A DNA stretch of 64,000 nt from Gloeomargaritales cyanobacterium VI4D9 (GTDB taxonomy: Bacteria; Cyanobacteriota; Cyanobacteriia; Gloeomargaritales; Gloeomargaritaceae). Made by a program: the position numbers and the translations under genes. The number at the start of each line of letters is the position of its first letter. Positions within the stretch are counted from its first letter, which is position 1. The notes below the pieces were generated by a model. That model had not been told where the DNA came from and searched no databases. It worked only from the letters and a program-made list of their open reading frames with translations. The DNA is taken from assembly GCA_927797885.1 (NCBI GenBank), contig OV696605.1:248001-312000 (forward strand). The letters run 5' to 3'. Of this stretch, positions 10,272 through 15,205 are shown in pieces.

Positions 10272-10496
10272 TTACTGGGAATGGCGGGGTTGCCAGCCGG
10301 GTTGCCAAAGTTCCCGATCCGCCAGTTGCTGGGCATTGAGCCAAAAGCGTACCTTGGGGTCACACACCGCCACTAATTCCACAAAGGTAAATTGCGCCTG
10401 ACGTTTGATATTTTTGACCTGAAAGTGTCGCCACCCCCAGGTGGTTTGCCGTGCCGTCCACTGGGAACCCAGGCGAGGGATTAACCGCTTGGGCAT
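10272..10496 (-). CDS. Trp-rich conserved protein, TIGR02450 family
   Basis: 74 aa from ATG 10496 (10508 is an alternative). The pattern LGSQWTARQTTWGWRHF, then FVELVAVCDP and RFWLNAQQLADRELWQPGW, matches the small tryptophan-rich TIGR02450 family of cyanobacteria and some proteobacteria. Function is unknown. It overlaps the 3' end of the DRTGG ATPase gene by 16 nt and is probably the last gene of a three-gene unit. Confidence 0.8.
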   Translation of the reverse strand: MPKRLIPRLGSQWTARQTTWGWRHFQVKNIKRQAQFTFVELVAVCDPKVRFWLNAQQLADRELWQPGWQPRHSQ

Positions 10497-11551
10497 GGGG
10501 AACCCCAACGGCTGAGCAACCGTTCCATATCCAGGTATTGCGCCATCATCTGTTGCACGTATTGAATTTTCACCGGCTCCCGCAGTCGTACCTGCTCAAA
10601 GGTGCGTTCAATAATTTCCACCGCCGTCAACGTATCCATGTCCACCATCAGGATGGGAATTTCCATCTCCTCGGCGCGGCTCAAAACCATGGGATTCGGG
10701 GGATTCGGACCGGTTAACACCAGGCATTGGGTCGAGGCTTCCAGGGCGGCGAGTTGAATGTCCGTGCGCCCACTGCCGGTGATCACCACCATGTTTACCC
10801 CCTGGCGGAAGTAGTCCAGGGCGGCATTCACGCTCATGGCACCGATGGAGAGATGTTCGACCAGTAAATCCATCCGTTCGGGACAACAGACCACCTGCGC
10901 CTGCAAATGGTGCGCCAATTCCCCCACCGGCACACTGCGTAATAGGCGACTGCGGGGCAAAATCCCCAGCACCGGTATCCCCCGTTGCTCCAGCATGGGC
11001 ACCAAAATTTCCCGCACCGGTTGATCCGCCGGAACCGCATTCAGCAAAACCCCCAGCAACCGTTCCCCCAAATGAGCTTGCGCCATGAGCAATTCATCCA
11101 ACACCAGCAGGGACTGGCACCGCACCACCAGGACAACACCCGCATCCAGAACCGCCGCCATGTGCGCCAACCCCAAACCAAACAAATGCCCTTCGGAGAG
11201 ATTGGCGGGGGCTTCCAAAAGCATCAGGTCGGGAATGGTGAGATTTTTATACGACTCTAATGCCGCCGTCAGGGGGGTCGCCTGGGGCAATAAATCCGGT
11301 TGTTTCAGCCAATCTTCCCAAAAAACCAGGGTGGGGGCGAGGCAGTCTGGCGGTAATTTCAATACCTGCGCCGCCAATTGCCCATCCGCATCCAGGGGCA
11401 CGGGGTCGTTGGTCACCCGCTCGGTGCCTACGGGTTTGCCATAACCGATGCGAAACTGGCGGGCTTGGAGTTGTTGGGCAATCCCGAGGGTGGCGGTGGA
11501 CTTGCCACTATACGCCTGGGTGGAACCGATCAACAAAAAACGGCTGGTCAC
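10481..11551 (-). CDS. BioD-like P-loop/DRTGG domain protein (phosphotransacetylase N-terminal-like)
   Basis: 356 aa. The N-terminal P-loop GSTQAYSGKST (residues 8-18) belongs to the dethiobiotin-synthetase-like fold. A DRTGG domain follows at about 210-320 (LSIGAMSVNAALDYF, VVITGSGRTDIQ). This architecture equals the N-terminal part of long phosphate acetyltransferases but lacks the catalytic PTA domain. A regulatory nucleotide-binding role is likely; the true function is not known. The ATG overlaps the stop of the upstream MBL gene in an ATGA. Confidence 0.8.
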   Translation of the reverse strand: MTSRFLLIGSTQAYSGKSTATLGIAQQLQARQFRIGYGKPVGTERVTNDPVPLDADGQLAAQVLKLPPDCLAPTLVFWEDWLKQPDLLPQATPLTAALESYKNLTIPDLMLLEAPANLSEGHLFGLGLAHMAAVLDAGVVLVVRCQSLLVLDELLMAQAHLGERLLGVLLNAVPADQPVREILVPMLEQRGIPVLGILPRSRLLRSVPVGELAHHLQAQVVCCPERMDLLVEHLSIGAMSVNAALDYFRQGVNMVVITGSGRTDIQLAALEASTQCLVLTGPNPPNPMVLSRAEEMEIPILMVDMDTLTAVEIIERTFEQVRLREPVKIQYVQQMMAQYLDMERLLSRWGSPCPSG

Positions 11552-12222
11552 TGCCTCACCTGTTGGACGTGGGAAGAAATCCGTCCCATAACTTCATCAT
11601 ACCAGTCCTCCCCTGGCTCTGGACGCACCCACCCCTGTCCCCGCAGAAAACCCGTATTGGCGCCGGGGCAAAAATAGGTGACCGGGCGTTTCCCTAGCCA
11701 GGTTTTGAGCCATTCACAACTGCGCTGTTGCCGGAGCCAATGGAAGGTCTTGCGGGTGGCGAGTAGGCTGAGTTTCCCTTGGGGGTTGGGGAGCAAATGC
11801 CGTCCGGTGAACAGCACCCCTCCCGACCGTTCCAGGTAGATGCAACTACTGCCGGGGCTGTACCCCGGTGTCCAAATCATGGTCACGCCCGGCATGACGG
11901 TCAGGGTTTGGGCGAAGGGATGCACCCATACCCCCGGATAGAGGTAGGCTTCCTGTTGTTGGGTGACGATGGGGCAGTGAAATTCCTGTTGCCATTGGGG
12001 AATGCGGTCGGCACCGTCCCGGTGGGTCAGGAGTAAATGCTGGATACCCCCTTGACTCCGACACCAGGGGTGAAAGTCCCAGGCGGGGCAGTCAATCAAA
12101 AGATTCCCCGCCAGCCCCAGGGTCTCCCCTACAATGAAATAGCTGGTACCGCCCAGGGTGTGCCGTTGGGGGGGAAAGGCAAAAATTCCGTCCAGTATGG
12201 GTTTCGGGGCTAGGGATGACAT
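11548..12222 (-). CDS. MBL-fold protein lacking the usual metal ligands
   Basis: 224 aa from ATG 12222. The fold is recognisable from FAFPPQRHTLGGTSYFIV, LLIDCPAWD, the second-strand motif LLLTHRDGAD and WTPGYSPGSSCIYL, but the ligands are altered: HxHxDH reads HRDGAD, the His of TPGHSPG is Tyr, the GD(H/S)LL Asp is Arg (GRHLLP), and the last His region reads CPGANTGFLRG. It is therefore predicted not to bind the usual dinuclear metal. Related cyanobacterial proteins, as I recall them, share several of these changes, so this may be a conserved non-enzymatic branch. The start overlaps that of the S2P homologue by 7 nt head-to-head. It heads the unit leading to the DRTGG ATPase. Confidence 0.8.
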   Translation of the reverse strand: MSSLAPKPILDGIFAFPPQRHTLGGTSYFIVGETLGLAGNLLIDCPAWDFHPWCRSQGGIQHLLLTHRDGADRIPQWQQEFHCPIVTQQQEAYLYPGVWVHPFAQTLTVMPGVTMIWTPGYSPGSSCIYLERSGGVLFTGRHLLPNPQGKLSLLATRKTFHWLRQQRSCEWLKTWLGKRPVTYFCPGANTGFLRGQGWVRPEPGEDWYDEVMGRISSHVQQVRQ

Positions 12223-13556
12223 GGGTGACGTTGGGGGTATTGGCGTTAACCACCTTTCTTCTAGTGTGGCACCATGCCCGCTATCTGAGCCGCACCCCCT
12301 GGTGGTTGCTGTGGTTGGTGCTGATGTTGCCGGGGTTGGTGGTGGGGGTATGGGTGTGGTTCCACGGGGAACAACAGGCGATGCCAGCGATCCTGGTGGT
12401 GATGCCCTTCCTGTTGAGTGGCGTGTTTTATTTCCTGCTGGTACGGCAAGGGGGGGGCGTGCCCCGGCTGTTGACCGAAACCACGGCGGCGCCCCTGACC
12501 CCGGCGGAAGTGACCCACCTGCGCCAATGCTTTCCCTGGGAACTTTATGCCCTGCAAAGGATTGACCAACGGGAGGGGGTGGTGGTCTGCGCGGGTCGGT
12601 TGCGGGGGAATGCCGCGACAGCCTACCGGGTGGTGGCGCAAAACATCCATGCCCAATTGGGGCAACGGTTTTGGCTGATCCTGGCACCGAACCCTGACCA
12701 AAAACCCTATTTTGCCCTGGTGCCCCGGCGGCGACCTGCCCCCCGTCCCGATGGCTGGGTGATTGGGGTTACCAGTCTGGGGCTGGGGTTGTGGATCACC
12801 CGGACGGTCACGGCACCCTACCTGGGCATTGCCCAACCCCTGGGCTGGGGGTATGGGGTGGGGGTGTTGGCGATTTTGCTGGCGCGGGAGGTGGGACAAC
12901 GGTGGGGTCTGCATCCCCATGGGGTCAAAAGCGGCTGGCCGTGGTTGATTCCGTTCCCTTTGTGGCCGGGGGTCTTGGGCACCTACAGCGGCATGATGGA
13001 ACCCTTACCGGATCGGCGGGCGTTGGTGGATCGCACCTGGCTGGGCGTGGCGTTGGGGTTGGTGGTTACTCTCTGCCTGTTGCTGTGGGGGTTGGGGCAT
13101 TCCCAGCTCACCCCTGGGGGATTTTTACCCCACCATTCCTACCTGCTGTGGGTGGTCAGCCGTTGGGTGTGGGGGGATGCGTTGACGGCAGGCATGGGGT
13201 TGCACCTGCATCCGGTGGCTTGGGCAGGGGTCGTGGGTTTGGGACTGCTGGGGATACAGTTGACCCCGGTGGGGCGGTTGGATGGCGGATGCCTATTGCA
13301 CGCCCTGGTGGGACGGCGGGGGGCGCAACGATGGGGGTGGGTGACCAAAGCCCTGGTGCTCCTGCTGGGTTGGCAGGTACAACCCTGGTTGCGGGGGTGG
13401 GGCGTTTTGCTGTTGTTCATCCCTACTATGCCGCCGCTGGTGCTGAATGAGGTGACGGAACTGGACCCCCAACGGGATGGGTTGGGACTGTTGGGGTTGG
13501 GATTGTTCCTGGCAATTATCCTGCCCGCACCTGGTTTTTTGCCCAGGGTTGGGTAG
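12216..13556 (+). CDS. Site-2 protease (M50/EGY-like) homologue with degenerate active site
   Basis: 446 aa, with hydrophobic helices at the N-terminus (two) and about six in the C-terminal half. The order of blocks follows cyanobacterial EGY-type S2P: a soluble domain (about 85-170) with GRLRG in place of GNLRG, the M50 motif region, PDRRALVD, and LDGG. The HExxH motif reads REVGQ (residues 224-228), so both His ligands are gone although the Glu remains; the third ligand Asp356 in GRLDGG is kept. This suggests a pseudoprotease comparable to plant EGY3. The start overlaps the divergent MBL gene, and the 3' end overlaps the Fe-ADH gene by 41 nt. Confidence 0.82.
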   Translation: MTWVTLGVLALTTFLLVWHHARYLSRTPWWLLWLVLMLPGLVVGVWVWFHGEQQAMPAILVVMPFLLSGVFYFLLVRQGGGVPRLLTETTAAPLTPAEVTHLRQCFPWELYALQRIDQREGVVVCAGRLRGNAATAYRVVAQNIHAQLGQRFWLILAPNPDQKPYFALVPRRRPAPRPDGWVIGVTSLGLGLWITRTVTAPYLGIAQPLGWGYGVGVLAILLAREVGQRWGLHPHGVKSGWPWLIPFPLWPGVLGTYSGMMEPLPDRRALVDRTWLGVALGLVVTLCLLLWGLGHSQLTPGGFLPHHSYLLWVVSRWVWGDALTAGMGLHLHPVAWAGVVGLGLLGIQLTPVGRLDGGCLLHALVGRRGAQRWGWVTKALVLLLGWQVQPWLRGWGVLLLFIPTMPPLVLNEVTELDPQRDGLGLLGLGLFLAIILPAPGFLPRVG

Positions 13557-14607
13557 TGGTTTGCATGGCCGCTAGGACTGCGGTGGGGGTCACCGGAAAG
13601 GGCAAACGGTGAATGTCACTCCCAGGGCGGCAGATCACCTCCGCCAGTTGGGCTAATTCTGCGGTGGGCAATCCCCCTAACCCCAAATCAGCTAGGGTGC
13701 AAGGCAAATGAATCTGTTGATACAACGTGAGTAACTGCGCCCGGGCGACCCCCGCCAAGGGATACCCCTGGGCTTCCTCTAGGCGCAACTGCACCAAAAT
13801 CCCAAACGCCACCTTTTCCCCGTGGAGCCAAGCATGGGTCTGGGGCCAATGGGTCAAACCGTTGTGCACCGCATGGGCGGCCACCGTCCGGCATTGGGCA
13901 CCCCCCACTCCACCAATCAACCCCGCCATCAAGACCGTGGCATCCACCACCTCCTGCCAAGTCGGACTCCCCGGTGTCGCCAGGGCTGGTACCGCTTTTT
14001 GCAGTAAAATATCCCGCAAAATTCTGGCCTGTTGCACCGCCATCACCACGGACGTGTCCTCGGATTGGCCGCTACTGACGGCGGCTTCGTACCATTTGGC
14101 CAAGGCATCCCCAATCCCTGAGGCGAGGGTGCGGGGGGGAGCGGTTTGCAGCAGGTCATAGTCCAACAGCAACAGTTCCGGGCAGTGGCGCAGGGGCACA
14201 TCGTACTGAAAGGCTCCCGCCGGGGAATAGATATTGCTCAAGGCCGTCCAAGCGGCACAGGTCGCTCCCGTGGTGGGAATGGTGATCACCGGCAGTTGGG
14301 CATCATGGGCGGCGAGTTTTCCCGCATCCAGGGCTTTGCCCCCCCCACAGGCCAGCACCCCGCCGACCCGGTGGGTACGAATCGCCTCGCTAAGTTCCTG
14401 GCGCAGGGTTTCCGTACATTCCCGCAGGGTCACCACCTGCACCGGGGCAAGCCCCACCGCCCGCAGTCGGGGCCATACCAAATCAATACTCGTCTGCCCC
14501 CCCACCAACAGCCAACGTTGGGTGATGGCGGTAAACCGTTCCGGGTACTGGGAAATTAAATCCCGCCCCCGCAGTACCGACTGGGGGCTAATCACCAACT
14601 CGGACAT
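13516..14607 (-). CDS. Iron-containing alcohol/glycerol dehydrogenase family protein
   Basis: 363 aa from ATG 14607; GTG 14619 is possible. NAD-binding glycine region GGGKALDAGKLAA, TIPTTGATCAAWTALS, the metal Asp in ASGIGDALAKWYEA, and His residues in AAHAVHNGLTH and the WLHGEKVAFG motif place it in the GldA branch of group III dehydrogenases. It likely reduces or oxidises a small polyol or hydroxyketone; the substrate is unknown. It lies 22 nt after ycf51. Confidence 0.88.
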   Translation of the reverse strand: MSELVISPQSVLRGRDLISQYPERFTAITQRWLLVGGQTSIDLVWPRLRAVGLAPVQVVTLRECTETLRQELSEAIRTHRVGGVLACGGGKALDAGKLAAHDAQLPVITIPTTGATCAAWTALSNIYSPAGAFQYDVPLRHCPELLLLDYDLLQTAPPRTLASGIGDALAKWYEAAVSSGQSEDTSVVMAVQQARILRDILLQKAVPALATPGSPTWQEVVDATVLMAGLIGGVGGAQCRTVAAHAVHNGLTHWPQTHAWLHGEKVAFGILVQLRLEEAQGYPLAGVARAQLLTLYQQIHLPCTLADLGLGGLPTAELAQLAEVICRPGSDIHRLPFPVTPTAVLAAMQTTTQPWAKNQVRAG

Positions 14608-14629
14608 GAACCAGATCACAGGGTTAAGG

Positions 14630-15205
14630 TTACGAACCAGGAAACGCCCGTTCTAGGCGAGCCAACGCCTGGGTATCTAATTCTACCACCATCCCAGGGT
14701 CTTGCCGTTGGCGCAGAGAACGCCGCACCTGTCCCAGATAGAGGGGTTCTGTCACCCCCGGTTCCGGGTGGAGCAACGTGCGAGCCCGTACCGTCAACAC
14801 CCCATCCCCCGTCGCCAAACGACCATAGGAAAATAAATCATTCGCCGCCTGTTGCAGGGTAGCGGTCAGTTGTTCTGGGGTGAGATGCCCCGCCACCGCA
14901 ATCACCGCCTGGGTGCCCCCCCCATCGTACACGGTGGTATAACGACTGGCATTGGGCAGAACCGTGCGGGTCACGGGGGTCAATCCCAGGGCAAACAAGC
15001 CCCCGGTGAGAACCGCCATAAAGCCGGTAATCCCCACCAACCGGAAGCGGATGCCCCAGCGCCAGCCAAAGCCCACCAGCGTCACCAGGGCACACAGGAG
15101 CGTCAAGCCCCCCATGACCTTAGCTGCCTGGGCAAATTCCGCCAGAGTGGGAATGGCTAGTAACACAACTTGGGTCGTAAATAAATCGGGAAGGCTCATG
15201 CTCAT
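14630..15205 (-). CDS. ycf51: Ycf51-family protein
   Basis: 191 aa. Two hydrophobic helices lie in the first 75 residues (around GLTLLCALVTLVGF and GFMAVLTGGLFALG). They are followed by a soluble domain containing YDGGGTQAVIAVAGHL, NDLFSYGRLATGDG, RARTLLHPEPGV and PLYLGQVRRSL, all typical of Ycf51 (DUF2518), conserved in cyanobacteria and some plastids. Function is unknown. Its ATG overlaps the receiver-gene stop in an ATGA. Confidence 0.9.
   Translation of the reverse strand: MSMSLPDLFTTQVVLLAIPTLAEFAQAAKVMGGLTLLCALVTLVGFGWRWGIRFRLVGITGFMAVLTGGLFALGLTPVTRTVLPNASRYTTVYDGGGTQAVIAVAGHLTPEQLTATLQQAANDLFSYGRLATGDGVLTVRARTLLHPEPGVTEPLYLGQVRRSLRQRQDPGMVVELDTQALARLERAFPGS

Follow-up and report, generated by a model that had tools for sequence, protein, structure and literature searches.

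In its passages on EGY3, PMC10978774 describes this Arabidopsis protein as a chloroplast site-2 protease (S2P) homologue that lacks the HExxH motif, stabilises chloroplast proteins and acts in stress. Pseudo-orthocaspases, catalytically inactive protease variants with an HC to YS change, are kept across photosynthetic bacteria (PMC6426788). Here we analyse a gene pair in a 64,000-nucleotide stretch of DNA (the window) from Gloeomargaritales cyanobacterium VI4D9 (GenBank assembly GCA_927797885.1, contig OV696605.1, positions 248,001 to 312,000), whose genome is a single contig of 3,162,419 bases. The pair consists of an EGY-like S2P homologue (12216..13556, forward strand; ATG start, open reading frame (ORF) of 446 amino acids), a predicted pseudoprotease, and of a head-to-head gene for a putative pseudo-hydrolase of the metallo-beta-lactamase (MBL) fold (11548..12222, reverse strand; ATG start, ORF of 224 amino acids). 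Like EGY3, the window S2P is EGY-like, lacks HExxH and is retained, and plant EGY3 appears to be its nearest functional analogue. It differs in that EGY3 is a plant nuclear gene and that the passages on it in PMC10978774 mention no head-to-head MBL partner. Pseudo-orthocaspases are likewise retained inactive variants of a protease family, but they are soluble cysteine proteases with another chemistry and no exchange of charge for metal. The Synechocystis EGY-like S2P homologues Slr0643 and Slr1821 (passages of PMC4284730 and PMC10094980) belong to the same superfamily as the window S2P; by comparison, the window gene has lost both zinc-binding His, whereas its intact orthologues have HExxH and LDGG.

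In the window S2P, HExxH is replaced by REVGQ (12885..12899, forward strand) at the codons where relatives have HELGH, and no HExxH was found elsewhere when the whole ORF was checked. The catalytic Glu is kept, as is the acid that forms the third zinc ligand, the Asp of an LDGG motif (13278..13289, forward strand) identified by alignment with relatives. The (N)xxPxxxLDG motif is present as TPVGRLDGG, with Gln in place of the preceding Asn. The profile of this family finds the solved S2P 3b4r (mjS2P) with an E value of 6e-4, HELGH aligning on the catalytic HELGH of 3b4r, and the window protein is about 40% identical to its intact cyanobacterial orthologues. Pfam M50 is matched by 41 of the 42 members of the family alignment, the sole exception being the window S2P itself (E 0.016, below the cut-off). 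An earlier note, made from the letters of this DNA alone, had reported the REVGQ change, an MBL protein without its ligands, long intact frames and a 7-nucleotide (nt) overlap of the two starts, and we confirmed all four. Three further M50 genes in the host genome all have HExxH; because they keep it, proteolysis should be covered in the cell, and loss of activity in the window S2P need not remove intramembrane proteolysis. A second EGY-like S2P with an intact HEAGH motif, a diverged paralogue of the window S2P (37% identity), lies about 6 kb to the left of the window (locus L061, 5491-6879, G000:C1).

To follow the pair in other cyanobacteria we read genomes chosen for their spread over families and genera, plus 80 named loci from one collection scan. 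Each genome contributes to the counts a single paired S2P whose motif could be read, rows gapped in the motif being dropped; a cut at 200 bits separated paired-type from paralogous rows ('P' and 'para'), and in the tree three 'para' rows from family f23 join the paired clade. Among 59 relatives an S2P match was found in 55 and an MBL match in 49. The MBL gene is head-to-head with the S2P gene in 123 of the 145 genomes, sampled from 38 families, and no other orientation was found among the 145. Gene pairs conserved in related genomes, the first check proposed in the earlier note, are thus common. In the other 22 genomes no MBL gene was seen in the locus, a count that includes 6 with too little upstream sequence to tell and comes from a test blind to partners past the 1.5 kb flank of most loci. 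The 80 named loci, mostly from Nostocales, comprise 76 head-to-head pairs and all keep HExxH. Since orthologous head-to-head pairs recur on this scale, the pair is not a product of chance.

The spacing of the two genes is far less constant than their orientation. In 173 measured pairs the anchor-to-anchor distance is 0 to 1,533 nt longer than in the window; tight spacing (within about 30 nt) is seen in families f1, f19, f22 and most of f26, and most relatives have about 50-600 nt extra between the S2P and MBL genes. The overlapping start codons of the window (ATGACAT, 12216..12222, both strands), with the same spacing in G003 and G006, are therefore the compact end of a variable spacer and are not essential to the pair. 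The N-terminal residues of both proteins recur among other species of the genus, and this conservation backs both starts. The claim that the overlap leaves neither gene a private promoter holds for the spacer only: each gene could have a promoter inside its partner, or transcription of the MBL gene could come from the glycerol-dehydrogenase-like (gldA-like) gene upstream of it. A promoter scan was uninformative (0 sites against 0.9 expected).

A divergent arrangement can last without a functional link, and the pairing could reflect a frozen bidirectional promoter and genome compactness, with the two proteins acting in different pathways. In keeping with this, Gloeobacter-like genomes have the MBL homologue and an EGY-like S2P unlinked, and G002, a species of the window genus, as well as one contig of G001 (C6), keep the MBL gene without the S2P gene. 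Because the S2P gene is absent there and the MBL gene kept, the S2P is dispensable in these genomes and the couple is not obligate. A frozen promoter fits poorly, however, with a pairing that holds in 123 of the 145 genomes at spacings from overlap to more than 1 kb and with the lack of any other orientation, and we regard it as a somewhat unlikely explanation that still deserves attention. The head-to-head arrangement may postdate the Gloeobacter split, given that G020, which we take to be Gloeobacter, is unpaired; its MBL homologue and EGY-like S2P lie about 18 kb apart (L151 and L152). The G001 assembly, made up of many contigs, holds two versions of the locus, with and without the S2P gene (L159 and L160), reflecting either two strains in the assembly or a duplication.

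We then compared the zinc motif across the paired clade. HExxH is intact in 112 of the 145 genomes and broken in 33 (21 of 121 genera, 10 of 38 families); the last batch of genomes took in some relatives of known broken genomes, so that 33 of 145 is not an unbiased prevalence, and before that batch 26 of 125 genomes were broken. A tree built without the motif columns gives at least 10 independent changes of HExxH state. The window genus is broken and its sister genus G007 intact, with a node support of 96. Further broken groups are G197, two in f22, G030, G010, two in f13, twelve f16 genomes, G022, five f5 genomes and a weakly supported f23 plus f20 group (37), and most of the broken groups have intact sisters. 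Some broken proteins retain one His, for example as RELGH or REGGH. Because intact motifs dominate both the clade and the paralogues, we infer that the direction is loss and not gain of HExxH, and the window S2P appears to be a comparatively recent pseudoprotease in a mostly intact clade. The earlier note had named intact orthologues in the same clade, together with disrupted frames here, as what would speak against it; an intact HExxH does occur in the same family, in G007, and the frames here are undisrupted. In f23 the second EGY-like S2P is broken as well (RELGW, RELAQ, REYAQ, REGGL and RELAL in L268, L269, L270, L302 and L303), and f23 genomes may be without any active EGY-like protease, the paired type being broken where it was found.

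The broken copies are under purifying selection. The ratio of nonsynonymous to synonymous substitution rates (dN/dS, NG86 method) was 0.216, 0.198, 0.094, 0.077, 0.045, 0.124, 0.080 and 0.091 in eight broken pairs and 0.050-0.147 in nine intact pairs; in a ninth broken pair, G004-G005, a stop codon made it not computable. In the frames that the searches listed, no internal stop is present in 32 of the 33 broken genes, and G005 has a single TGA near the C-terminus. We rejected an ordinary pseudogene for the window S2P on the intact frames and dN/dS. Of the columns that at least 90% of the intact copies share, the broken copies kept 88% in the soluble domain, 83% in the N-terminal transmembrane part, 80% in the core and 39% in HExxH. 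Some other conserved core positions, such as G222, P278 and H359, shift in broken copies, as if the site had been locally rebuilt.

The residues that replace the motif follow a pattern of charge. In 41 of the 42 broken S2Ps from both EGY-like clades, Arg or Lys stands at one of the three catalytic positions together with Asp or Glu at the LDG position; the exception without Arg or Lys, G010 (YHFSQ), has Asn at the LDG position. Within the broken paired copies basic substitutions fill 37 of 60 catalytic cells, compared with 22 of 365 at other conserved non-basic columns. Counted per event, 11 of 12 are basic (simulated P between 0 and 0.0035 across five mutation settings); two of these twelve lie in paralogues, and the f20/f23 union is weakly supported. 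The charge of Arg or Lys may thus stand in for zinc in the broken proteins. Two cysteines show the opposite behaviour to the zinc ligands: Cys105 (codon 12528..12530) and Cys125 (codon 12588..12590, both on the forward strand) are invariant in the 145 paired S2Ps, all 112 intact and all 33 broken copies, and occur in only 3 and 4, respectively, of 30 paralogue rows. The common function of the paired clade would appear to need these cysteines more than the zinc His, and they may form a redox switch or a disulphide.

An account by drift would hold that the second EGY-like protease made catalysis redundant, that the motif then decayed and that the gene is heading to loss. The intact EGY-like paralogue, the absence of the S2P gene in G002 and G001:C6 and the slightly raised dN/dS of the window genus are what it would lead one to expect. 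It does not agree with low dN/dS in all eight broken pairs measured, with the near absence of internal stops, with an invariant Cys pair and non-random basic replacements, or with a broken clade as deep as that of the twelve f16 genomes, and we consider drift unlikely.

The explanation that we prefer is that the pair joins an EGY-like membrane pseudoprotease, with a selected, non-cleaving and possibly redox-sensitive role, to a pseudo-MBL protein; this may well be correct, but we stop short of calling it probable. The S2P and MBL genes are an old cyanobacterial head-to-head couple and would be expressed together through their common start region. The selected core function of the S2P would be to bind or hold a membrane partner, as a scaffold or chaperone in the manner of plant EGY3, and not to cleave peptides, and it might be switched by the Cys105/Cys125 pair. 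With catalysis dispensable, a basic residue would replace zinc and pair in charge with the LDG acid, often also with the Glu of HExxH, and this pairing would keep the transmembrane helices locked even in the absence of metal. The soluble partner of the S2P would be the MBL protein, whose former metal site now holds Arg. A bolder version, in which the clade repeatedly exchanges its zinc for an internal Arg or Lys whose charge neutralises the retained active-site acid and yields a metal-free, possibly redox-switched scaffold of unchanged fold paired with the pseudo-MBL, seems to us possible but rather doubtful.

Several observations weigh against the preferred explanation. Besides the loci of G002 and G001:C6 that keep only the MBL gene, families f5 and f23 have broken S2Ps with no MBL gene in the loci read. 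The AlphaFold model of the window S2P (mean predicted local distance difference test (pLDDT) 77.4, predicted template modelling score (pTM) 0.66) gave no Foldseek match at E <= 0.001 and is weak at the key site: the LDGG region has a pLDDT below 50, and an Arg-Asp bridge is not visible in the model. The figure of at least 10 changes leans on a gene tree with some weak nodes, and in the 37 of 60 basic cells neither related genomes nor residues within one event are independent. Finally, no other broken pair reaches the dN/dS of the window genus (0.20-0.22), although this is far below 1.

The MBL protein has lost its ligands in another way. In the window HxHxDH is replaced by THRDGAD (within LTHRDGAD, 12007..12030, reverse strand, located by homologue alignment), the next His by Tyr (GYSPGS), the bridging Asp by Arg in an Arg-His pair (GRH; 11797..11802, reverse strand) and the last His motif by CPGAN. 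The protein scores 23.4 bits with Pfam Lactamase_B, just over the cut-off of 22.7, and its AlphaFold model (pLDDT 80.7, pTM 0.82) has Foldseek matches of the MBL fold. The best solved match is PDB 2p97 (Ava_3068 of Anabaena variabilis), but the 20% identity and a profile score of 22.8 bits suggest that this belongs to another MBL family. HxHxDH was found in none of 207 cyanobacterial MBL homologues. The Arg of LTHR is present in all 207, the bridging-Asp position is Arg in all 206 readable rows and is followed by His in 204, and the third-motif position holds His 173 times, Tyr 28 times and Phe 4 times. Because the ligands are missing across the whole family, Gloeobacter-like homologues included, the loss is old and common to the family. 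The window genus has Tyr at the third-motif position, as does G007, whose S2P is intact, and we rejected the idea that the His/Tyr state tracks that of the S2P, there being no clear relation (19 His and 6 Tyr beside broken, 76 His, 18 Tyr and 4 Phe beside intact S2Ps). In L209 (G353) the MBL gene beside an intact S2P is apparently split over several frames and is possibly decaying or frameshifted. CPSF100 is an MBL-fold pseudoenzyme without metal ligands that is paired with another protein in RNA processing; it resembles the window MBL protein as a ligand-free fold with a partner, and its RNA-processing context is unrelated.

It follows that both proteins lack canonical metal sites, as the earlier note had stated, but that on the MBL side this is no peculiarity of the genome. 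A single event behind both losses is rejected, because the MBL loss is old and family-wide and the S2P loss young and recurrent, having occurred in the window genus and at least 9 other separate times. Selected non-catalytic roles, the other proposal of that note, are likely for both proteins because metal sites are lost, frames are long and intact, selection is purifying and the pair is conserved beyond the host genome. Perhaps the two share one membrane pathway, as the gene pairing would suggest.

On the reverse strand the pair is flanked by a DRTGG/AAA_26 gene (10481..11551), whose start has a 4-nt overlap with the MBL stop, and by the gldA-like gene (13516..14619), whose 3' end overlaps the S2P gene by 41 nt. 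Both genes also flank the pair wherever other species of the genus have kept it; in the sister genus G007 neither was found in the vicinity of the pair. Noncontiguous operons, in which an opposite-strand gene is inserted in a co-directional gene set, are described from Staphylococcus aureus (passages of PMC7154746); the window S2P gene stands in the same arrangement, known here from the gene layout. One could accordingly propose a single leftward transcript of the gldA-like, MBL and DRTGG genes on which the antisense S2P gene acts, in this genus, mainly through overlapping RNA. The overlaps of 41 and 7 nt would suit this, and in G002 and G001:C6, both without the S2P gene, the frames of the gldA-like and MBL genes point the same way and overlap, so that the S2P gene lies antisense inside a potentially plain co-directional row. 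The neighbours are genus-specific, however, and a terminator scan was at chance level (4 found against 4.3 expected), and we think this quite improbable. Least probable of all is that both proteins still bind metal through a rebuilt site (S2P Asp356 and others; MBL His67, Arg141-His142, His161 and Cys185). In favour of this, the MBL protein retains a new group of polar residues that hardly vary, and one His survives in some broken S2Ps. Against it, both His are gone from the window S2P, part of the genus has Gln or Asn in place of MBL His67, and Arg in a zinc site disfavours zinc.

Two results are of most interest: the protease site was lost repeatedly and in a charge-balanced way, and the two cysteines never vary. 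Most pseudoproteases are isolated examples, whereas this orthologous gene has at least 10 parallel motif losses beside intact sisters, so that its unchanging features, namely the Cys pair, the soluble domain and the LDG acid, can show where the non-catalytic function lies. If the bolder version given above is true, the clade is a natural replicated experiment showing that the essential role of this S2P is non-proteolytic. A phenotype attributed to an 'S2P' in a cyanobacterium need not reflect proteolysis. Provided that the charge rule holds, a single mutation that supplies the charge of the ion is enough to retire a metal site, a route from enzyme to pseudoenzyme. The window genus is probably, by our own naming, Gloeomargarita. 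Gloeomargarita is regarded as the closest living relative of plastids, and for this reason the relation of the window S2P to plant EGY3 is of interest.

In the titles and abstract beginnings searched, with subscription journals mostly outside the search, we found no account of the S2P/MBL pair, and the literature on Gloeomargarita and proteases gave nothing on it. Nor did we find a description of Arg replacing the metal in a pseudoenzyme, the passages of PMC10377022 included. A published slr1821 primer matched none of 388 genomes, and matches of other published Synechocystis primers in the loci were near chance. The 8 best slr0643-L primer matches, from 5 genomes, all lie in paired-S2P loci, as do most of the loci searched; a place for Slr0643 in the paired clade is hinted at by this similarity, which we did not use as evidence.

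Next to the gldA-like gene, at 14630-15205 on the reverse strand, lies a DUF2518 gene (PF10726), which we take to be Ycf51-like.

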